From positions 62,001 through 126,000 of the forward strand of contig DUFA01000107.1 in the NCBI GenBank assembly GCA_011191975.1: a stretch of 64,000 nucleotides of DNA. The letters are read 5' to 3'. Below the pieces are notes generated by a model. That model was not told the DNA's origin. It worked only from the letters and a program-made list of their open reading frames with translations, and did not search any database. Both the position numbers and the translations under genes were made by a program. Origin of the DNA: Dehalococcoidia bacterium. Its GTDB lineage: Bacteria; Chloroflexota; Dehalococcoidia; Dehalococcoidales; UBA2162. Shown here in pieces: positions 47,129-64,000 of this stretch (position 1 is its first letter; each line of letters starts with the position of its first letter).

Positions 47129-50100
47129 ATGGAGTTAAACCGGAGAGAATTTCTAAAATTCGGCAGCGCAGGGATGGGAGCCCTCGTGCTGCTGAGAGGA
47201 GCCGGTTCCTTAAAAGAAGGTAGCAGCGCTATTAAGCCTGTACCTCTAAGGAAAAAGATCGGCGAAACGACAACGATATGTCCGTATGACGGGTCCGGAT
47301 GCGGATTTATCGTCGCCGCCGATGCCGAAAAAGTAATCAACGTCGAAGGAGATCCGGAGCATCCGATTAACCGTGGTGGTGGATGCGCCAAAGGTCAAGC
47401 CATTTCCCAACTTAGAACTGTCGATGGTAAAGACAATGCACGACGTCTTACCAACGTTATGTACAGGAAACCAGGCGGAACGGAGTGGGAAACAAAGGAT
47501 TGGGACTGGGCCATCGACAAAATATCTCAAAACATCAAGAAAACCCGTGATGCATCATGGGTAAGCACTGATGATCAGGGATATATGGTAAACCGAACCG
47601 AAGGTGTTGCTTCGGTGGGTGGCTCAGCTCTAGACAATGAAGAATGCTACCTGCTGGTAAAAATGCTGAGAGCCCTCGGCCTGGTCTACATCGAGCATCA
47701 CGCCCGTATATGACACTCCGCTACAGTTGCGGCTCTGGCAGAGTCGTTCGGTAGAGGGGCAATGACCAATCACTGGAATGATATCGCAAACAGTGATTGC
47801 ATAATGGCTATCGGCTGTAACGCTGCCGAAAACCACCCGGCTTCTTTTGGTCATATCACAGATGCTAAAGAAAAAGGCGCTAAACTCATAAGCGTCGATC
47901 CCAGATTTACCCGTACTTCATCCAAGGCTGATATTTACGCTCCTATCAGATCTGGAACGGACATAGCCTTTATCGGAGGCATGATAAACTACGTTCTTAA
48001 CGATATGGATCAAAACCCATCCAACTATAATATGGTATATGTGAAAGAATATACCAATGCCTCGTTCCTGATTAACCCGGGATTCAAGGGTGCAGTCGAT
48101 CTTGACGGCCTTTTTTCCGGGTACAGCGAATCCTCACGCAGTTATGACAAGTCCACCTGGTCATACCAGAAAGATGCCAACGGTATTCCTTTGAAAGACA
48201 AGACCCTCCAGGATCCGAACTGCGTATTCCAGCACCTGAAACGACATTACGTACGGTATACACCAGCCAAGGTAAATGAAATTTGTGGCACTCCCCAGGA
48301 TGTCTTCATGGAGATTTGTCGAACGTATGCCGCTACAGGAAAAGCCGGCAAAGCCGGGACGATCATGTATGCCATGGGTACTACGCAGCATACTTATGGA
48401 ACGCAGAATGTCAGGATTTATGCCCTTCTCCAATTACTGCTGGCTAATATCGGTATTACCGGTGGCGGAATTAACGCCCTCAGAGGCGAGGCAAATGTCC
48501 AGGGATCGACCGATCAGTGTTTACTCGTCCACATTCTCCCTGGTTATCTTGGACAACCCATCAACAAAGATGACACCCTGGCATCCTACCTTAAGCGGGT
48601 CACTCCTGTTACCAGCGACCCAAATAGCGCCAACTGGTGGCAGAACTATCCGAAATATATCGTATCCCTGCTTAAGGCATGGTATGGCGACGCCGCCAAG
48701 CAGGATAACGATTTTGCTTTCAACTACCTCCCCAAAACCACCAAACCCTATAATGATTACTCCTGGATAGGTCTTTTCGAAGACATGTATGCCGGCACGA
48801 TCAAAGGACTAATGGTCTGGGGACAGAATCCTGCGGTCTGCGGACCCAACTCAAATATGGAACGCAAAGCCCTTGATAAACTCGACTGGCTGGTTGCCGT
48901 CGACCTATGGGAGACGGAAACAGCCGCTTTCTGGAAACGACCAGGTGTTAATCCTCAAGATATCGATACTGAGGTATTCCTGCTTCCCGCTGCGGTCTCT
49001 TTCGAAAAAGAAGGCAGTGTCACTAACAGCGGACGCTGGATGCAGTGGCGTTATAAAGCCCTGAATCCTCCGGGAGAAGCCATGGAAGACCTCTGGATAA
49101 TCAACCAGCTTGTCATGAAACTTAAAGAACTCTACAGGTCCGAGGGGGGACCTCACTCCGAGGCTATTACCGACCTTGCCTGGAATTACGGCGAACACCC
49201 GAGCCCCCGCGATGTAGCCAAGGAAATCAATGGCTACGACCTGGCTACCGGCAAGCTGCTGAACAGCTTCACCGCTCTTAAAGATGACGGGACAACCAGT
49301 TCTGGCAACTGGCTCTACTGCAATAGCTATGTTGAGCCTGACATGGAACCGAATGCCCCCATCCCCGGCAACAGATCCACTCGAAGGGATACCGATCCGG
49401 GTATGTACAATGTCGGACTTTATCCGAAGTGGGCCTGGTGCTGGCCGGTGAACCGAAGGATCATCTATAACCGCGCATCGGTCGACCTCAATGGAGACCC
49501 CTGGGATAAAGAGCATCCAGTTATCTGGTGGAAAGACGGCAAATGGACCGGTGATGTACCTGATGGAGGTTGGCCGCCAATGGCAGTCGATCCAGCGGCT
49601 ACGAAATATCCATTTATCATGCAGAGTGAAGGACATGCGCATATCTTCGGCCCCGGTCGCGTAGACGGTCCCTTCCCTGAGCATTACGAACCCTGGGAGA
49701 GTCCGGTTGAAAATGCAATGTCTAGAACCCAGAATAATCCCACCTTTAAAATCTGGAATTCCGAGATGGACTACAAAGGTACCGCGGATAAATATCCCAT
49801 CGTCTGTACTACCTACCGCGTTGTCGAACACTGGCAGGCAGGCCAGTTAACCAGAAACCTGCCCTGGTTGGTCGAGCTACAGCCCGAAATGTTCATCGAA
49901 ATGAGTGAGGAGCTGGCTGCAGAAAAAGGTATCGAGAACGGAGAGAAAGCCATCGTGGAAACAGCCAGAGGCAAAGTTGAAGCGGTAACTCTCGTAACCC
50001 AGCGCTTTAAACCATTCCAGATGAACGGCAAGGTTGTACACCAGATCGGTATGCCCTGGCACTGGGGCTACACAGGACTATCGACAGGTGACAGTGCCAA

Positions 50101-50182
50101 TGTATTGACCCCACATGTCGGTGATGCCAATACAATGATCCCTGAGTACAAGGCATTCTTGTGCAACGTGAAAAAAGCGTGA
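47129..50182 (+). CDS. fdhA: Selenocysteine-containing formate dehydrogenase catalytic subunit (TGA at codon 195 = Sec)
   Basis: The track shows two ORFs (47129-47713 and 47762-50182), but both lie in the same frame and are joined by a single TGA at 47711. The sequence around it reads HHARI-U-HSATVAALAESFGRG, exactly the Sec site of molybdo/tungsto-formate dehydrogenases. The 1017-codon product has a Tat signal (NRREFLKFGSAGMGALVLL). The N-terminal [4Fe-4S] motif is CPYDGSGCG...GGGCAKGQA, with Asp where the second Cys is usual. A bis-molybdopterin fold follows (ALRGEANVQGS, GSVTNSGRWMQWR, ATKYPFIMQSEGHAHIFGPG and other family blocks). It oxidises formate to CO2 outside the membrane; electrons pass to FdhB and the NrfD-type anchor. 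Confidence 0.93.
47711..47752 (+). promoter_or_regulatory. Bacterial SECIS-like element of fdhA
   Basis: Immediately 3' of TGA 47711 the sequence CACTCCGCTACAGTTGCGGC resembles the E. coli fdhF SECIS. A UUGC/GCAG stem (47727-47730 with 47738-47741) closes a GGCUCUG loop that begins 17 nucleotides after the UGA and starts with G, as bacterial SECIS elements require. SelB would bind here. Confidence 0.75.
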
Positions 50183-54225: not shown

Positions 54226-55305
54226 ATGCGACGTTTCTTAACGCGCAGATTATTGATAATTTACGCCGGACTCATTTTCGGAGTTCTGGCTGCATTGATG
54301 GTCAACTGGGGAAATCCGGCTAATATGGGCATATGTGTCGCCTGTTTTATTCGTGATATTTCAGGCGCTCTGGGACTTCATCGCGCAGGTGTTGTCCAGT
54401 ACGTTCGCCCGGAGATCATCGGTTTTATCCTTGGGGCCTTTATCACGGCATTTGCATTCCGAGAGTGGCGTTCTTCAGGTGGTTCTTCGCCACTGGTACG
54501 TTTCTTCCTCGGTGCGTTCGTAATGATCGGAGCGCTCGTATTCCTTGGTTGCCCAACCCGTATGATAATACGAATCGCCGGCGGAGATCTTAACGGGATT
54601 CTCGGCCTGGCTGGAATAATCGTCGGGGTGCTTATAGGTATCGTTTTCCTGAAACGTGGATTCAATCTTGGTCGGGCAACGTCGATGAAACCGGCAGTCG
54701 GATGGATAATGCCCATCGCCATGATAGGTCTCCTTGTACTCGCCCTGGTGAAACCGGGTTTTATATTCGCCAGTGAAAGCGGACCGGGAGCAGCAAGTGC
54801 AGCAATAGCGGTTTCACTTGTAGTCGGGCTGGCTGTCGGATTCATGGCCCAACGTACCCGTATGTGCTTCGTCGGCGCCTGGCGCGATATATTTCTTGTA
54901 AAGGATTTCTATCTTGTCAGCGGTATCATCGCTTTCTTCATTGCCGTTCTGGTAACGAATTACCTAGCAGGAAACTTCGGGGCTGACGGTATCTACCACT
55001 GGGGTTTCGATAGCCAGCCTATAGCCCATAACGACCATCTTTGGAATTTCCTCGGTATGACCCTGGTAGGTCTGGGGGCAACATTATTAGGTGGCTGTCC
55101 ACTAAGGCAGCTCATCCTTACCGGTGAAGGCAATACCGATTCCGGTATTACCATTCTCGGTCTTTTTGCCGGGGCAGCTTTTGCCCATAACTTCCTCCTG
55201 GCATCAAGTCCGGCTGGTACAGGCGCATGGGGACCCGTGGCAGTAATTATCGGCCTGGTATTCTGTGTAGCCGTCGGATTCCTGATGAGAGAGAAAATAG
55301 CCTAG
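54226..55305 (+). CDS. YedE-type selenium transport/metabolism membrane protein
   Basis: The 359-residue protein has about nine to ten membrane segments and the sulfur-transport (YeeE/YedE) fold. The signatures of the selenium-linked subgroup are NPANMGICVACFIRDISGAL near residue 26, GCPTRMIIRIAGGDLNG, RTRMCFVGAWRDIF and GGCPLRQLILTGEGNTDSG. The conserved cysteines are believed to handle selenite- or selenide-type species. The start at 54226 is set by GGAGG five bases upstream. It is followed by DUF3343, kinase-like and TusA-like genes and selC. Confidence 0.88.
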   Translation: MRRFLTRRLLIIYAGLIFGVLAALMVNWGNPANMGICVACFIRDISGALGLHRAGVVQYVRPEIIGFILGAFITAFAFREWRSSGGSSPLVRFFLGAFVMIGALVFLGCPTRMIIRIAGGDLNGILGLAGIIVGVLIGIVFLKRGFNLGRATSMKPAVGWIMPIAMIGLLVLALVKPGFIFASESGPGAASAAIAVSLVVGLAVGFMAQRTRMCFVGAWRDIFLVKDFYLVSGIIAFFIAVLVTNYLAGNFGADGIYHWGFDSQPIAHNDHLWNFLGMTLVGLGATLLGGCPLRQLILTGEGNTDSGITILGLFAGAAFAHNFLLASSPAGTGAWGPVAVIIGLVFCVAVGFLMREKIA

Positions 55306-57117: not shown

Positions 57118-57214
57118 GGGAGCGGATGAGTCCCGGTGGACTTCGCGGACTTCAACTCCGTCTGGGGGGCGTTAGAGCGTCTTCGGTGGGTTCGACTCCC
57201 ATGCGCTCCCGCCA
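57118..57214 (+). tRNA. selC: tRNA-Sec (selC), anticodon TCA, encoded CCA
   Basis: The 97-nucleotide sequence has the bacterial tRNA-Sec architecture. The acceptor GGGAGCG/CGCTCCC is followed by G-CCA and the T stem GTGGG/CCCAT. It has a six-base-pair D stem GAGTCC/GGACTT with a CGGT tetraloop, an anticodon loop CTTCAAC with TCA, and a long variable arm. It decodes UGA as selenocysteine, and no other tRNA has this layout. It lies 160 bases after the last selenium gene. Flanking ORFs in the track (57126, 57136) are shadows. Confidence 0.95.
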
Positions 57215-57471: not shown

Positions 57472-57771
57472 ATGTATTTGGTTTCAAACAGTACCTATCC
57501 CCTATCAAGTGCAAAAGAAATAGCTGCAGCCTTTGTAAAAGCAGCAGCAGAGCCTTTACCACCATATATCAAACGAACTCACACACTAACTACAGCTGGT
57601 GACCTTGGAATCAGGGTACTCGGTATTTACGAAGTGGAAGATGATAAAGTATCCCAGGCAATCAAGGATCTTACAAAGTATTTCGTTCAGTATTATGAGA
57701 TGGAGGGATTTTCGTATACGTTAGAACCTATGTTAACTGCTCAAGAAGCAATACCTCTACTGGGATTATAA
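57472..57771 (+). CDS. Small soluble protein, unknown
   Basis: The 99-residue product starts MYLVSNSTYPLSSAKEIAAAF; AAAGGAG eight bases upstream fixes this start rather than the track's earlier one. It is alpha/beta with a GDLGIRVLGIYEVEDDKVSQAIKDL centre, reminiscent of small ferredoxin-like-fold dimer proteins such as its neighbours, but I do not recognise the family. The 257-base gap back to selC shows nothing else. Confidence 0.6.
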   Translation: MYLVSNSTYPLSSAKEIAAAFVKAAAEPLPPYIKRTHTLTTAGDLGIRVLGIYEVEDDKVSQAIKDLTKYFVQYYEMEGFSYTLEPMLTAQEAIPLLGL

Positions 57772-57841
57772 ATAAGCAGAACTAAATTATCTTGGGTGAT
57801 ACAAGCTAATGGGTATTGAATACTAAAAAGGAGTGAAAGAA

Positions 57842-58276
57842 ATGAGCGTAGAGGAAAATAAAAAGACATTATATCGGGTTTTTGAAGAGGTGTGGAATAA
57901 AGGTAATTTAGATTTAATACCTGATCTTGTTTCACCCGATTATGTCGGTACACATGCACAAGGCGTTGCTAAAGGTCACGATGGATATGAGCAAATGGTA
58001 AAATCTATGATATCATTTCTACCCGACCTTCATTATACGGTGGAAAATGTAGTCGGTGAAGGTGACATATTGACGGCTAAAGTAACTTACACAGGGACTA
58101 TCGCTAATGGCAAGATAGGTGATCTTGATATATCAGGAAAAAAGATAAAAGTCACAGCTGTTCTTATAAATCGATATGAAGACGGTAAATGTATAGAATC
58201 AGAAAATTATAGTAATCCCCTTAATCCACTAAAGCAAGTGGGGGTAACCATACCGCCTGAGTGGGGTATGGGATAA
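57842..58276 (+). CDS. SnoaL-like (NTF2-fold) ester-cyclase family protein
   Basis: The 144-residue protein from ATG 57842 (AAGGAGTG upstream) reads VEENKKTLYRVFEEVWNKGNLDLIPDLV. The GEGDILTAKVTYTGT strand and C-terminal NPLNPLKQVGVTIPPEW match the homologues at 10084, 59754 and 62002. Family members are polyketide cyclases, isomerases and hydrolases. Substrate unknown. Confidence 0.85.
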   Translation: MSVEENKKTLYRVFEEVWNKGNLDLIPDLVSPDYVGTHAQGVAKGHDGYEQMVKSMISFLPDLHYTVENVVGEGDILTAKVTYTGTIANGKIGDLDISGKKIKVTAVLINRYEDGKCIESENYSNPLNPLKQVGVTIPPEWGMG

Positions 58277-58315
58277 CAATCACTTAGAAATAAAAAATAA
58301 AAGGAGAAACAAAAA

Positions 58316-58645
58316 ATGTTAGTTGCGGATATTTACAGACTTAAAGATTCTTATTACGCTATGTCTGCCGAACTCCAATCTGGAGATGAAGAAGCAAAGA
58401 AAAGGAGAGAAGAAATCCAGAAGGAAGCAAGTGCTTGGATAGAGAAATATGCCAAACTTGGGAAATGGAAGGCGCATTACCCATTTGCCAACGGGAGGGG
58501 AGGTATCTCTATTTGGGAATTTGAATCTGGGGAAGAAATGGCTCGCATTCTCTCGGAGTCTATTATATTCGGTCATATTGAGTCAGAAACTATCCCTCTT
58601 TCAGAGGTTGATATGATTGCCAATATACTTAAGGAGTCAGCTTAA
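58316..58645 (+). CDS. Muconolactone-isomerase-like (ferredoxin-fold) protein
   Basis: The 109-residue protein is a small alpha/beta-barrel-type protein: LVADIYRLKDSYYAM, a helical charged centre (SASWIEKYAKLGKWKAHYPFANGRG region) and ISIWEFESGEEMARILSES. It resembles the neighbour at 58808 in the x-x-S/L-W-x-W/V-x-S-x-E-E-x pattern. Probably a dimeric small-molecule-binding protein. Strong AAAGGAGAAAC site. Confidence 0.65.
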   Translation: MLVADIYRLKDSYYAMSAELQSGDEEAKKRREEIQKEASAWIEKYAKLGKWKAHYPFANGRGGISIWEFESGEEMARILSESIIFGHIESETIPLSEVDMIANILKESA

Positions 58646-58748
58646 GCAGGCTACCAAGAAAGAATTTAAATACTATCATCAGCCAATAATCGGTAAATCA
58701 GAACCATAGTTAGGGAAGGCTATCTGGTTATAGATATTAACGACATAG

Positions 58749-58776
58749 GCTAGCAGGTCTTCAATGGTCTGCTAGC
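58749..58776 (+). repeat. 28-nt intergenic stem-loop, copy 1
   Basis: GCTAGCAG and CTGCTAGC (8 bp, perfect) flank a 12-base GTCTTCAATGGT. G-U and U-G pairs plus C-G extend the stem to 11 bp around TTCAAT. It lies 31 bases before the ATG of the next gene. The preceding TTAACGACA motif (58737-58745) recurs before copies 2 and 3. Confidence 0.75.
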
Positions 58777-58807
58777 TTCCACTCAATAAAGTTGAAGGAG
58801 AATAGCA

Positions 58808-59110
58808 ATGAATTTTTTGATGACTATTACGTACAAAGATTCCTGGTATGCTTTACCACAAGAAAAGAGGTCAGAGATTGTGGGGCAAGTTGTAGCATAT
58901 CACGAGAAGTATCTCAAAGAAGGCAAACTCAAAGATACTTACTCGTTTGCTGGTGGGATACTGATGAGTGTCTGGAATGTAGACTCTCTTGAGGAATTTG
59001 TCCTCATTCAATCAGAACACCCTTATTCTGTGTTAGTCAATTACGAGTCTGCTCCATTTCTTGACCATCAGGAGGTTGTCACGCTCATGGGGAAATTGAG
59101 AAACCGCTAA
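58808..59110 (+). CDS. Muconolactone-isomerase-like / DUF-type small alpha-beta protein
   Basis: The 100-residue product (MNFLMTITYKDSWYALPQEK) has the strand-helix pattern of the muconolactone isomerase and YCII-like dimeric ferredoxin folds: FAGGILMSVWNVDSLEEFVLIQSEHPY. It is preceded by AAGGAGAATAGCA. Stem-loop copy 1 is just upstream. The 66-residue frame at 58792 is a shadow. Confidence 0.7.
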   Translation: MNFLMTITYKDSWYALPQEKRSEIVGQVVAYHEKYLKEGKLKDTYSFAGGILMSVWNVDSLEEFVLIQSEHPYSVLVNYESAPFLDHQEVVTLMGKLRNR

Positions 59111-59225
59111 TAAGTTTAACTAGATAAAAAGTTTTGGACTTACCATGATTCCCTCGGCATGTATCAACAAATAGGCATTATCTCACCCACTGGATAGACC
59201 TGTCCATATAAGGTATTAACTACAA

Positions 59226-59253
59226 GCTAGCAGGTTTTCGTTGGTCTGCTAGC
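59226..59253 (+). repeat. 28-nt intergenic stem-loop, copy 2
   Basis: GCTAGCAG/CTGCTAGC around GTTTTCGTTGGT. The spacing to the next ATG (59278) is 24 bases and the sequence CCTGAATTAAGAAAGGA after the stem is shared with copy 3. TTAACTACA (59216-59224) precedes it. Confidence 0.75.
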
Positions 59254-59277
59254 CTGAATTAAGAAAGGAATTAATAT

Positions 59278-59670
59278 ATGGATATAAAAGAATTCGCAGA
59301 AAAGTTCATTGAAGCGGAAGACAAAGCATTTCAGCAAGGTGATTATGAAGCATTAGAGCAAATCGAATCACCAAATATCGTGATACATTATCCACCACTA
59401 CCAGACTTCAATGGGTTCGAAGCACACAAACAATATATTATGGCTGCCCGTGAGGGAACTAAAGACCTTCAACAAGAGTGGCAATACGTTGTTGGTGATG
59501 GTAATATAGCTGTCCTGTCCTTGAAGCAACAAATGACTACTACAGTAGATAATCCACAATTCCAGATACCAGCTGGTTCGACTGTGAATGCTGATGGGTT
59601 GTTTGTATTAAAACGAGAAAACGATAAGATTGCTGAAATTTGGTTACATTCCAATCTTGCTGTTGAATGA
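59278..59670 (+). CDS. SnoaL-like (NTF2-fold) family protein
   Basis: The 130-residue protein shows the short SnoaL/ester-cyclase pattern: FIEAEDKAFQQGDYEALEQI, GDGNIAVLSLKQQ and INADGLFVLKRENDKIAEIWLHS-like ending. GAAAGGAATT precedes the ATG. It is diverged from its neighbours and lacks the C-terminal LGVxPP element. Confidence 0.78.
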   Translation: MDIKEFAEKFIEAEDKAFQQGDYEALEQIESPNIVIHYPPLPDFNGFEAHKQYIMAAREGTKDLQQEWQYVVGDGNIAVLSLKQQMTTTVDNPQFQIPAGSTVNADGLFVLKRENDKIAEIWLHSNLAVE

Positions 59671-59700
59671 ATTTTTATTTTTAACTACATAAAGGATGAA

Positions 59701-59728
59701 GCCAGCAGGTCATCAATGGTCTGCCAGC
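59701..59728 (+). repeat. 28-nt intergenic stem-loop, copy 3
   Basis: GCCAGCAG and CTGCCAGC around GTCATCAATGGT. The T-to-C change is on both arms at the same sequence position, so it leaves a two-base internal mismatch rather than a compensated pair. The loop is nearly identical to copy 1, and the CCTGAATTAAGAAAGGAG trailer matches copy 2. It lies 25 bases before ATG 59754. Confidence 0.72.
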
Positions 59729-59753
59729 CTGAATTAAGAAAGGAGAAATACAA

Positions 59754-60173
59754 ATGTCACTCGAATCAAATAAAGCCGTTGTGCTCCGGGAAATTGATTT
59801 CTGGAACGGTCACGACGCCGAAAAGATAGATGAGGTTTATGCTGACGACTACGTTGGCCACGAGATCAATGGATCCCACGGCGGAAGCCGAGACCAGGTG
59901 AAGCAGGGCGCTGTTGCCATTTTTGCCGCTTTCCCCGATGTGCATCTGACTGCTGATGCCATCATCGCCGAAGGGGATAAGGTCGTCAAGCTCTGGACGG
60001 GTCGCATGACCCATAAAGCCGAGTATATGGGCATTCCGGCGACAGGAAAGGAAATCGTCGTCACCGGGTGTAATGTCTTCCGCATCGTTGACGATAAGAT
60101 CGCAGAGTGCTGGGCCCACACGGATTCCCTGAGCATGATGCAGCAACTCGGCGTAATTCCGCCGATGGGATAG
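59754..60173 (+). CDS. SnoaL-like ester-cyclase family protein (GC-richer than neighbours)
   Basis: The 139-residue protein has the full ester-cyclase pattern: LREIDFWNGHDAEKIDEVYADDYVGHE, IIAEGDKVVKLWTGRMTHKAEYMGIPATG and MMQQLGVIPPMG. Its sequence is visibly GC-rich at third positions compared with the flanking genes, suggesting a separate origin. AAGGAG site. The minus-strand frames over it are shadows. Confidence 0.87.
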   Translation: MSLESNKAVVLREIDFWNGHDAEKIDEVYADDYVGHEINGSHGGSRDQVKQGAVAIFAAFPDVHLTADAIIAEGDKVVKLWTGRMTHKAEYMGIPATGKEIVVTGCNVFRIVDDKIAECWAHTDSLSMMQQLGVIPPMG

Positions 60174-60199
60174 TTTCACTTTATATTGATATGAAAGGA

Positions 60200-60227
60200 G
60201 CTAGCAGTTTTTTAACAATCTGCTAGC
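60200..60227 (+). repeat. 28-nt intergenic stem-loop, copy 4
   Basis: GCTAGCAG/CTGCTAGC around a diverged TTTTTTAACAAT loop of the same 12-base length. It follows the 59754 gene, and unlike copies 1-3 no ATG follows closely (the next gene starts 204 bases on). The rest of the 60228-60431 gap has no visible gene. Confidence 0.65.
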
Positions 60228-60431
60228 TTACTTCTTCTTTGCCAGAGCACGGCTGAGGCAACACAAGATTGCCGTACAGGCGTAGTGTGAGTGCAATGTG
60301 AGTAATTCTCTTATTGACATCACCGCCCCACTCCTTTAAACTCAATAACCATAAGTAACGGGTACTATAGCTGCCGATAGTGCGGTTGATAGTGCCCGAT
60401 TATGTTTTAGGGAGTTAACTAAGATAGGACA

Positions 60432-61130
60432 ATGTCAAGCTTTTTAATTTTTATTGCAGAACCAGCAGTAGGTGGAGTAGTTGAAAAGACTTTTTTCGGA
60501 AAGCATAAGGTGAGTATCGGTAGTTTGTATAACGTAGTTGGTTACTGGGCTTACCAGCAGGGCGCTGTACTTGGTTATGCTTTACGAAATAACCTAAAAT
60601 TACTAGCAAAGTTAGCAGGACTGTTAGGTGCGAATATCCATGATAAGGAGGCTGAAGAACTAACCATTTCTTTAAGAGAATGGTTAAGAAAAATGGCGTT
60701 AGAACAACTGGAAGAAGCGGGAAATGAAGAAAAGACTTTCTACCATTTATATACAGCAAGAGAATTACGGACATTTGGAATAAAAAATCCACGTTGGCCT
60801 TCAGATAAGGCACTTAAAAAGAAAGTCGATACAAAATTCGTTGGTCGCGTACTGCGTTCTTCTTTTATAAAAGGGGTAGCACTAGGTCTCAATTTTCCAA
60901 CTGAATTCATAAATTTTTGGGAATATACTTATCGAATTAGGTCAAATAGTGAATCGAAGGAAACTTCTAAGATAGTTGATTTAGAGACTGAAACACAACC
61001 GTTTCGAACACTAAGTGAGGTTATTGTTGAAATTTGTCGATCAACGATATCCTGGGCATCGGAAGGATCAGGAATACTCAGTCGAAAGGAGATCAAATAT
61101 CTCGAACAGTTAGTCATAGAAAATGAGTAA
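60432..61130 (+). CDS. Soluble protein of unknown family
   Basis: The 232-residue product has an N-terminal SFLIFIAEPAVGGVVEKTFF part and mostly helical, charged middle and C-terminal parts (WLRKMALEQLEEAGNEEK, YTARELRTFGI, SGILSRKEIKYLEQL). No catalytic motif or membrane segment is clear. The ribosome-binding site is weak. I do not recognise the family. Confidence 0.5.
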   Translation: MSSFLIFIAEPAVGGVVEKTFFGKHKVSIGSLYNVVGYWAYQQGAVLGYALRNNLKLLAKLAGLLGANIHDKEAEELTISLREWLRKMALEQLEEAGNEEKTFYHLYTARELRTFGIKNPRWPSDKALKKKVDTKFVGRVLRSSFIKGVALGLNFPTEFINFWEYTYRIRSNSESKETSKIVDLETETQPFRTLSEVIVEICRSTISWASEGSGILSRKEIKYLEQLVIENE

Positions 61131-61170
61131 AAATATACTGAGTATATATTACCCATTAAAAACAGAAAAG

Positions 61171-61205
61171 CACTCCCACCAGCCGAAGAGATTGGGAATT
61201 AAAAA
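61171..61205 (+). promoter_or_regulatory. Leader motif with CCGAAGAGATTGG (copy 1)
   Basis: TCCCACCAGCCGAAGAGATTGGGA is a TCCCA/TGGGA hairpin about 35 bases before the methyltransferase gene. The core CxGAAGAGATTGG recurs at 61961 before the next gene with the same spacing. Confidence 0.45.
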
Positions 61206-61218
61206 ATGAGGTATCTCG

Positions 61219-61950
61219 ATGTTAAATAATCAACAGGATGCTTTTGGTCATAGTTTATATGACTACTTACAAGGTAAAGCTGAGTTCCAGATCGTTGAAA
61301 GAGATGATGGGTATATTGAATCCGAAAGACTTCAAGGGTATTTCAACCAATACAAGGACTGGCGTCCAATTGAGAAGACGGCTATGAGGTTCGTACGGGG
61401 TAGAGTCTTGGATATAGGCTGTGGCGCTGGCAGACATGCCTTATACCTTCAAGAGAAAGAGCATGATGTTGTTGGAATAGACATTTCCCCATTAGCAATC
61501 AAGGTGTGTAAGGAGAGAGGATTTAGAGATGCTAGACTTGTATCAATAAATCAGATTAGTCCCAAACTCGGTGTATTTGACACAGTGATTATGATGGGTA
61601 ACAACTTTGGTTTATTTGGCAGTTTTAAAAAAGCAAAACACCTGCTCGGTAAACTCAGCAAGATAACTTCACAAAGAGGCAGGATAATTGCCAGTACTAA
61701 TGATGTGTACAACAATAAGATTCCAGAGCATTTTGAGTATCAAGCATCAAATAGAAGTAAGGGTAAAATGTCAGGGCAGCTACGAATCAAGGTTAGATAC
61801 AAGAGATACTCTACACCTTGGTTTGACTATCTTATAGTGTCCAAGAATGAGATGGAGAGTATTCTTGAGGGGACTGGTTGGGTGGTGAAAAAGTACATAG
61901 ATTCTGATAACTCCTATTACATGGCAATCCTTGAAAAGGTCAAACCTTAA
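61219..61950 (+). CDS. Class I SAM-dependent methyltransferase
   Basis: The 243-residue protein has motif I RVLDIGCGAGRHALYLQEK near residue 66, VVGIDISPLAIKVCKERG (post-I) and VFDTVIMMGNNFGLFG (motif IV-like). It is a small-molecule type (methyltransferase-25/11 group) with substrate unknown. The preceding leader motif is shared with the next gene. Confidence 0.82.
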   Translation: MLNNQQDAFGHSLYDYLQGKAEFQIVERDDGYIESERLQGYFNQYKDWRPIEKTAMRFVRGRVLDIGCGAGRHALYLQEKEHDVVGIDISPLAIKVCKERGFRDARLVSINQISPKLGVFDTVIMMGNNFGLFGSFKKAKHLLGKLSKITSQRGRIIASTNDVYNNKIPEHFEYQASNRSKGKMSGQLRIKVRYKRYSTPWFDYLIVSKNEMESILEGTGWVVKKYIDSDNSYYMAILEKVKP

Positions 61951-61960
61951 TGGTTAAGCT

Positions 61961-61993
61961 GCCAACTGAAGAGATTGGAAAGTAAGAAAGGAG
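61961..61993 (+). promoter_or_regulatory. Leader motif with CTGAAGAGATTGG (copy 2)
   Basis: CCAACTGAAGAGATTGG (CCAA/TTGG hairpin) followed by AAGTAAGAAAGGAG sits just before the SnoaL-like gene at 62002, parallel to the element before the methyltransferase gene. Confidence 0.45.
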
Positions 61994-62001
61994 TATAAAC
62001 A

Positions 62002-62442
62002 ATGTCAACTGTAGAAGAGATAAACATGGAAAGTATTCACCGTTGTACAGAAGAATTCATGAACCAGAAAAATATATCGTTATTACCTGAGTTGTTCACG
62101 GAAGATTTTATCAATCATCCTAATGAAGGAGAAGATGTTGTAGGTCTGGACATTTTAAGGAAAGCGACTGAGATGACATTACATGCTTTTCCTGACTTTC
62201 ACTATGAGATAGTAGAAATGTTTGCTGTGGAAGACAAAATAGCTGTTGTATATAGGCAAACAGGGACTTTCAAGGGAGAGTACATGGGTATACAGCCAAC
62301 TGGCAAGAAATTTAATATCAGGTCGATATACGTATGTAGAATGAAGGATGGAAAACAAGCCGAAGCTTGGGGATGTAATGACCTATTAACTGCTTTCATA
62401 CAACTTGGCGTAATTCCTCCACCTTTTGTAATTCCAGAATAA
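62002..62442 (+). CDS. SnoaL-like ester-cyclase family protein
   Basis: The 146-residue protein reads MESIHRCTEEFMNQKNISLL at the N-terminus, then AVEDKIAVVYRQTGTFKGEYMGIQPTG and LLTAFIQLGVIPPPF. It is the family's canonical form and resembles the 10084 protein in IQPTG. AAGGAG site. Confidence 0.86.
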   Translation: MSTVEEINMESIHRCTEEFMNQKNISLLPELFTEDFINHPNEGEDVVGLDILRKATEMTLHAFPDFHYEIVEMFAVEDKIAVVYRQTGTFKGEYMGIQPTGKKFNIRSIYVCRMKDGKQAEAWGCNDLLTAFIQLGVIPPPFVIPE

Positions 62443-62457
62443 CAGGAGCAGAAACAT

Positions 62458-62856
62458 ATGGGAATTGAAGAGAATAAAGAGGTTGCTAGTGTGAAATACC
62501 CACGTATATATGCAGATGAATCTGGTGAAACGCATTTTGATGACGTTGAAATTGAACTTACGCCAACTATCGCTGCTCCACCAGCACCTCCAATAAACCT
62601 TTCATCTCCTATGCCAGCAACTCAATTTATTTATTATTCTTTCCCCGCCGGATATATAGGTGAATGGCACCCTGTTCCACACCGACAGATATTCTTCATT
62701 CTTTCAGGTGAGATTGCGGGAGAGGTAAGTGATGGTGAGGTGAGAACCTTCAAAACAGGAGATACTGTTCTTGGTGAAGATACGGTAGGGAAAGGTCATA
62801 GGACTTGGGTTACCAGTGATACTGACGTACTCACGGCAGTCGTGCAATTATCATAA
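62458..62856 (+). CDS. Cupin-domain protein
   Basis: The 132-residue protein contains the cupin motif region WHPVPHRQIFFILSGEIAGEVSDGE near residue 73 and a second strand set KTGDTVLGEDTVGKGHRTWV. It starts IEENKEVASVKYPRIY. Its motifs differ from the HCP-type cupins of the accessory region, so it belongs to another branch. It may act with the preceding SnoaL and following EthD genes. Confidence 0.75.
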   Translation: MGIEENKEVASVKYPRIYADESGETHFDDVEIELTPTIAAPPAPPINLSSPMPATQFIYYSFPAGYIGEWHPVPHRQIFFILSGEIAGEVSDGEVRTFKTGDTVLGEDTVGKGHRTWVTSDTDVLTAVVQLS

Positions 62857-62874
62857 GTAAAAGGAGAAAAAGCG

Positions 62875-63186
62875 ATTCGTGGATCAGTAATGTATCCGAA
62901 TGATCCCGATAAGAAATTCGACATGGATTATTACCTCAACAAACATATGCCAATGCTACATGAAACACTTAACCCGGTAGGTTTAATCAAAACTGAGGTA
63001 GACAAAGGACTAAGAGGGCAAGGAGAAAATACACCACCTGCATATCGTGTTATCTGTCACTTATACTTCAACAGTATGGAAGACTTTCAAAAGATAGAAC
63101 CTTATGCAGCAGAATTATTTGCTGATGTCCCTAAATATACCGATATAGTACCCGTTGTCCAGATAAGTGAAATAGTCCAGGGATAG
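62875..63186 (+). CDS. EthD-domain protein, non-standard start
   Basis: The family N-terminus (MIxGSVMYPNDPDKKFDMDYY) shows that coding begins upstream of the track's ATG at 62890. In frame are ATT-CGT-GGA-TCA-GTA before that ATG, and AAGGAG lies nine bases upstream of the ATT. There is no ATG, GTG or TTG in frame. ATT 62875 is therefore the best start, or the original ATG was mutated. The HMPMLHETL and VICHLYFNSMEDFQK segments are typical of EthD proteins. Length from ATT is 103 residues. Confidence 0.65.
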   Translation: MRGSVMYPNDPDKKFDMDYYLNKHMPMLHETLNPVGLIKTEVDKGLRGQGENTPPAYRVICHLYFNSMEDFQKIEPYAAELFADVPKYTDIVPVVQISEIVQG

Positions 63187-63197
63187 TCAGCCCGTTA

Positions 63198-64000
63198 TCA
63201 ACTCTCATCCAGTATCTTGTACATATCACGGTAGGAACGACCGAAATCGGGATCGGCTTCAGGCAGTTTTTCCTTCAACAAATTCATCTTTTCGATGAAC
63301 TGCTCTCTGTTTCCGCTTTTCACTATGTCTGCCCAGGTTGCGGCAGTCTTCATGAACAGTTCCTCCATTTCGGAAAGCCCAGGCAGATTCATCTGAATCG
63401 ATGCATAGAGTTCAGGATCCTCGGTGATCACACTCTCGGCCAGCGTCAACAATACACGGTAGGTTGGACCGCCGATAGCCTTCATTTTCTGAAGCTGTTC
63501 GAAGCCGAGAAGCACATCCGCCGATGCGATAGCGATGAAATGAGACAGACCAAGGACGACAGCCATCAGGTGGTCGTGCTCCTCAGGCGTCATCATCGTC
63601 ACCAGCCCACCTTTTTCAGTCAGGTTATCTCTTACCTTATTCGCTATCGTCTGTTCGGCGTCATTGGTGGGGGTAAGGATGAAATTCTGGTTACGGGCAC
63701 TCCTGGCACCGGGACCGAAGACAGGATGAGTTCCCAGTACGGTCACATTATCCAGGTATTCATGCATAACTCTGACCGGCATCACCTTGACCGAGGTTAC
63801 ATCCATCACTACCTGGCCGGAAGAAAGGTACGGTTTCAACTGTTTGATTACGCCGGTAAAACTGTCAATCGGCACGGAAACAATTATCAAACCGGCACCA
63901 TTAACAGCCTGTGCAAGGTCCGTTTCAATATCCGCACCAAGTTCGCGACCGGCAGCCAGCAGCTTCCCCTTATCTCGCCCGTACAGAATTACTTCTTTAC
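63198..64000 (-). CDS. Prephenate dehydrogenase (partial, 5' end outside window)
   Basis: The track's ORF stops at an internal start, but the frame is open to base 64000 and continues KEVILYGRDKGKLLAAGREL, which is part of the N-terminal Rossmann domain. The C-terminal part shows GLIIVSVPIDSF, VMDVTSVK, THPVFGPGARS, MMTPEEHDHLMAVVLGLSHF (substrate-binding histidine) and GPTYRVLLTLAESV. The enzyme converts prephenate to 4-hydroxyphenylpyruvate in tyrosine synthesis. The missing first ~30 residues and start lie beyond the right edge. Confidence 0.85.
   Translation of the reverse strand, partial: KEVILYGRDKGKLLAAGRELGADIETDLAQAVNGAGLIIVSVPIDSFTGVIKQLKPYLSSGQVVMDVTSVKVMPVRVMHEYLDNVTVLGTHPVFGPGARSARNQNFILTPTNDAEQTIANKVRDNLTEKGGLVTMMTPEEHDHLMAVVLGLSHFIAIASADVLLGFEQLQKMKAIGGPTYRVLLTLAESVITEDPELYASIQMNLPGLSEMEELFMKTAATWADIVKSGNREQFIEKMNLLKEKLPEADPDFGRSYRDMYKILDES

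Follow-up and report, generated by a model that had tools for sequence, protein, structure and literature searches.

The locus and its repeated element

The window, a 64-kb stretch of DNA from a Dehalococcoidia genome (G000; 3.33 Mb, 93% complete and 8% contaminated), contains four near-identical 28-nt palindromes, all on the + strand and each 26–115 nt past the stop codon of a small gene (Table 1). A search of the whole window for GCTAGCAG-N12-CTGCTAGC with up to three mismatches found exactly four copies, which have 0, 0, 2 and 0 mismatches in the order of Table 1. Averaged over shuffled windows, 0.13 matches are expected, and no shuffle reached four, so the four copies in one orientation on which the original prediction rested are confirmed. 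A weight matrix derived from all copies of the element scores the window copies at 31.8–51.0 bits, against 7.6 bits for the best of 20 shuffled windows, and nothing else on the + strand of the window scored above 0.

Table 1. Features around the four copies of the element in the window
Feature	Position	Strand	Remarks
MIase/GYD-like small protein gene	58316..58645	+	upstream of copy 1
Copy 1	58749..58776	+	exact consensus, internal type; 103 nt after stop of 58316-58645, 31 nt before ATG at 58808
Small protein gene, no Pfam match	58808..59110	+	product 38% identical over 88 aligned positions to product of 58316-58645
Copy 2	59226..59253	+	internal type; 115 nt after stop of 58808-59110, 24 nt before ATG at 59278
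SnoaL_2-like gene	59278..59670	+	homologue in genome G092 also followed by the element, 34 nt past its stop
Copy 3	59701..59728	+	internal type; 30 nt after stop of 59278-59670, 25 nt before ATG at 59754
SnoaL-like gene, last of four	59754..60173	+	upstream of copy 4
Copy 4	60200..60227	+	terminal type; 26 nt after stop of 59754-60173; next gene 204 nt off
U-rich (pyrimidine) tail of copy 4, TTACTTCTTCTTTG	60228..60241	+	terminal copies elsewhere typically CTTCTT
Promoter-like TTGACA-17-TAAACT	60314..60342	+	after copy 4, ahead of gene at 60432

The full unit is 28 nt long, GCTAGCAGGTCTTCAATGGTCTGCTAGC, and CTTCTT usually follows it elsewhere. The 8-base arms and 12-base loop first described for it are the Watson–Crick part of a longer hairpin: on the sense strand, positions 9–11 also pair with positions 18–20 (G.U, U.G and C-G), and the consensus sense RNA forms a stem of 11 bp closed by a 6-nt loop (−14.9 kcal/mol, z about −5). 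The consensus antisense RNA forms an 8-bp stem plus one isolated pair (−11.7 kcal/mol). Copy 3 carries two T-to-C changes that are not compensatory, as originally noted; they make two mismatches in the sense-strand stem and weaken the hairpin. Copy 4 folds about equally well on both strands. The motif TTAAC(T/G)ACA is indeed present upstream of copies 1–3 but does not generally accompany the element elsewhere.

Small SnoaL-, GYD-, EthD- and cupin-like genes form recurrent arrays in Dehalococcoidales, with or without the element (window 57472–63186; L033:3143–5106; contig C5 of G133; contig C41 of G144). Elsewhere in the window, a gene for a formate dehydrogenase-like large subunit (47129–50182) is read through an in-frame TGA at about 47711–47722 (HHARI-U-HSATVAA) and therefore probably encodes a selenoprotein. 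A tRNA-Sec lies at 57118–57210 and a YedE-like gene at 54226–55305.

Distribution among Dehalococcoidales

We found the exact pattern, in a species-level genome collection, only in Dehalococcoidia/Dehalococcoidales records (CP070842 bin10, DUFD01 W589 and JAUWYE01), and a scan of viral contigs returned no element. Copies within three mismatches occur in seven of 156 genomes of the order Dehalococcoidales, belonging to three families. With a covariance model, G092 and G120 give about 20 matches apiece, G074 about 10 and other genomes few; these numbers are inflated by opposite-strand matches to the palindrome. The one-contig genome G092 has about 14–16 copies, all solitary, and the richest genomes have about 14–20. 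The genome of the window contains one more full copy (C2:11760) and degenerate copies. The weakest model matches are chance-like: among those in family f37, the one that was read (L086, G123) falls in apparently coding sequence, probably an NADH dehydrogenase gene, and was taken as a chance match.

The 28-mer, loop included, is thus a dispersed repeat limited to a few Dehalococcoidales genomes, and nearly all of its copies are intergenic. There are also half copies, with unrelated sequence in place of one arm (L072:5213–5240, L078:4732–4759, L040:4001–4028 and L041:3493–3520); they could reflect decay or recombination. No relevant paper came up in a literature search for palindromic repeats of Dehalococcoidia. 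For Dehalococcoides mccartyi, generic REP candidates have been counted with RepRanger, and we did not see the 28-nt family described there (PMC12306157). The repeat is a real, lineage-restricted family, apparently undescribed.

Position relative to genes

The positions of 39 full copies were compared with genes called by a hexamer model that had been trained on G092; a gene of 105–111 aa at L025 and L068 (89% identity), missed by the caller, was added by hand. In gaps between tandem genes, 26 copies are in the sense orientation and one is antisense (p = 4e-7; 39 copies). Convergent gaps hold eight copies and divergent gaps one, even though the latter outnumber the former two to one in G092. 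Most copies start 8–120 nt after a stop codon. By automatic calls, the nearest upstream gene is on the same strand for 13 of the 14 best-scoring copies of G092, 11 of them within 120 nt, the exception being the L025 copy at 63772.

The original prediction linked the element to gene starts, since three copies stand 24–31 nt before a start codon. This spacing is real in the window; the feature that generalises, however, is the gene 3' end. Outside the cases with a close ATG, the next gene is 59–592 nt away or on the opposite strand. The element is attached to gene 3' ends across genomes, not to gene starts, and copies recur genome-wide without a link to the latter, the outcome that the original prediction had named as counting against it. 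Of the proposed new cis-regulatory RNA, an RNA element with fixed orientation and its best fold in the sense strand is supported, and its placement at gene starts is not.

A second repeated hairpin family is present in G092, TACGCATGGCTGGACAAACATCCCGATGTTTGTTC, with 18 near copies, 13 of them downstream of a same-strand gene and three of an opposite-strand gene. This hairpin sometimes directly follows the 28-nt element (L034 and L074).

Terminal and internal copies

Copies with the start of the next gene no more than 60 nt away were called internal, and those with a more distant next gene, or one on the opposite strand, terminal. The six internal copies are copies 1–3 of the window, two in G074 (L033) and one in G039 (L039). 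A U-rich tail (at least five T in the 8 nt after the stem) follows 26 of 33 terminal copies and none of the six internal ones, and the two types differ in pyrimidine content after the stem (p = 6e-4). At internal copies, the Shine–Dalgarno site of the next gene comes after the hairpin, and no promoter fits between hairpin and gene; copies 1–3 and those of G074 have CT(G/C)AAT(A/T) between the hairpin and the Shine–Dalgarno site. Promoter-like sites (at least 10/12) follow seven of the 19 terminal copies that precede a same-strand gene, against 0.5 expected. Copy 4 is of the terminal type in both tail and promoter-like sequence, and a simple terminator scan of the window did not call it. The simplest reading of the locus would be one operon running from about 57.4 kb to copy 4, with hairpins between its last cistrons; we infer its boundary.

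Two repeated promoter-like modules (−35, 17-nt spacer, −10; for example TTTGACTTCCCACGTTTGCGGTGGTATTGT and TTGACAACACCCCTCCAAAGGACTACAAT) occur in G092 (L108–L222). They have about 16–18 copies each and face a downstream gene within 200 nt in 10 versus 1 and 12 versus 1 cases.

Accessory genes and sequence evolution

In G120 and G074, none of the 15 genes directly upstream of a copy has an orthologue in G092 (at least 60% identity, 50% coverage), compared with 30 of 67 other genes at the same loci (p = 7e-4); the L068 gene missed by the caller does have one, and the count is 1/16 when it is included. Genes directly downstream are mostly accessory too, with an orthologue for three of 15. Homologues of the SnoaL_2-like gene elsewhere in G000 and in G133, G144 and G146, some in tandem arrays, are without the element. 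We rejected a link of the element to the SnoaL gene as such, since these other homologues have no copy within about 1.5 kb.

Differences between copies are mostly transitions and are scattered over the element. The covariation check suggested with the original prediction gave pair counts for the 11-bp stem that are not above shuffles. Because there is no covariation and mismatches are tolerated, selection on folding of the stem RNA is not supported. Across five homologous pairs, the element matches at 122/140 positions (87%) and the aligned flanks at 68–87%, so any extra conservation of the element over its surroundings is moderate at most. Over 46 nt, copies 2 and 3 share 87% identity, while the products of the genes after them share 27% over a partial alignment. 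Simple tandem duplication of gene plus element, raised originally as a possible origin, was rejected on this divergence of the neighbouring proteins.

Several blocks of homology begin or end within a few nucleotides of the element, on its 5' side in L030/L073 and on its 3' side in L033/L069, L029/L070 and L026/L071. Such ends are equally compatible with a unit of gene plus terminator and with recombination at the element. In G120, conserved genes enclose an accessory block (L076) whose ends are not at the element.

Possible roles of the element

We consider it somewhat probable that the four copies belong to a dispersed, sequence-conserved repeat of some Dehalococcoidales, functioning as a hairpin in the RNA at the 3' ends of coding regions. 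The best reading of the sequence is a REP-like, lineage-specific 3'-end hairpin, which would be a terminator at copy 4 and intercistronic within an accessory SnoaL-type operon at copies 1–3. Transcription in the sense direction would form the 11-bp stem and 6-nt loop. Where a transcription unit ends, as for copy 4 and most copies elsewhere, the hairpin is joined by a U-rich tail and often a new promoter, and would most likely act as an intrinsic terminator and 3'-end protector. In an operon interior, as for copies 1–3, it would be read through and would define the 3' ends or the stability of the mRNA for each segment separately, a role that has been proposed for REP sequences between cistrons. 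What is shown is the sequence, its distribution and orientation, the difference in tails and the association with promoters; termination, protection and read-through are inferred. In favour of this reading are the 26:1 sense bias between tandem genes, the eight convergent copies against one divergent, the usual position 8–120 nt after a stop codon, the U-rich tail confined to terminal copies, the promoter-like sites after some of these, the lack of a fitting promoter behind internal copies and the greater stability of the consensus sense RNA. Against it, a plain terminator needs no fixed 28-nt sequence with a conserved loop; covariation does not rise above shuffles and mismatches are tolerated; copy 3 is weak, copy 4 folds without strand preference, and the terminator scan missed copy 4.

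It appears unlikely, though credible, that the repeat is a REP-like miniature mobile element on which no role is selected; a transposase would have spread it, and its copies would be tolerated at gene ends for being nearly harmless in that position. Near-identical dispersed copies that include the loop, decayed and half copies, and mosaics with other intergenic repeats would be expected of such an element, as would the scattered, mostly transition differences without covariation and the position among accessory genes. However, strict sense orientation and a context-dependent tail are unexpected from random insertion, copy number is low, inverted pairs are absent, and the copy-rich genomes have no Y1/RAYT transposase.

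It seems improbable that a dedicated trans-acting factor, either an RNA-binding protein or a recombinase at an 11-6-11 site, recognises the 28-nt sequence, so that the genes tagged at their 3' ends would be a shared regulon or units exchangeable between Dehalococcoidales families. If true, this would explain the identical loop and arms, the accessory genes and the homology blocks that end at the element.

A site for site-specific recombination, in which an accessory gene and its 3' element form an exchangeable cassette recombined at the 11-6-11 site, is very doubtful. The accessory nature of the upstream genes, the homology blocks ending at the element, the array of gene–element units in the window and a recombinase-like gene near three copies in G120 (C12) point towards it. 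Against it, seven genomes searched have no integron integrase above cut-off and the copies no attC boxes, the inserted block of L076 is not bounded by the element, homologues and tandem arrays exist without it, and most copies are solitary; the cassette array suggested originally is not supported on these grounds. A leader element, acting as an operator or cis-regulatory RNA for the following gene, is very improbable: copies 1–3 and the two G074 copies do end 24–32 nt before an ATG with the common CT(G/C)AAT(A/T) before the Shine–Dalgarno site, but elsewhere the next gene is distant or on the opposite strand, the orientation bias towards the upstream gene is unexpected of a symmetric operator, and no Rfam family matches.

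This lineage-restricted repeat places a single sequence behind unrelated accessory genes, and within the one family its two settings, operon end with U-tail and operon interior without, are open to comparison. It provides a simple test of whether such palindromic repeats are under selection as signals for mRNA 3' ends or are mobile DNA that is tolerated, in a group that has been little studied and for which genetic tools are few.

Comparison with known systems

Rfam searches at gathering and relaxed thresholds returned nothing relevant, and a weak let-7 match at copy 4 was dismissed as chance. A dif/Xer site was also rejected: its geometry fits the 11-6-11 arrangement, but the sequence of the element seems unlike dif. 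Integron cassettes are similar in that small genes are each followed by a palindrome in one orientation; the element differs in being mostly solitary and dispersed. As the original prediction held, there is no match to attC: the RYYYAAC/GTTRRRY boxes are absent at all four window copies, as read from the sequence. A search for the integron integrase (TIGR02249) in seven genomes found none above cut-off, only ordinary tyrosine recombinases.

In Neisseria, DNA uptake sequences in inverted pairs make one repeated motif the terminator stem at many gene ends. The element is likewise a repeated motif at gene ends, differing in its 28-nt length and its rarity. With intrinsic terminators it shares a GC-containing sense hairpin after the stop codon and, in terminal copies only, a U-rich tail with the next promoter following; unlike them, it keeps one near-fixed 28-nt sequence across unrelated genes and families, and its internal copies have no U-tail.

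The closest likeness is to REP/BIME sequences, for which roles in termination and mRNA stabilisation have been proposed (PMC3733652, PMC2817692). Both are dispersed extragenic palindromes of 20–40 nt with a conserved sequence that includes the loop, with G.U pairs in one strand, found within operons and at operon ends. The flanks of the element are without the GTAG or CGTC tag of the REP definition (PMC3733652), it has about 14–20 copies rather than more than 100, and it is strongly sense-oriented without inverted pairs. The Y1/RAYT transposase family (PF01797) is absent from G092, G120, G074, G084, G113 and G039, and spread driven by RAYT was rejected for the copy-rich genomes. While it departs from the described REP families in tag, RAYT and copy number, the element resembles REP in kind.
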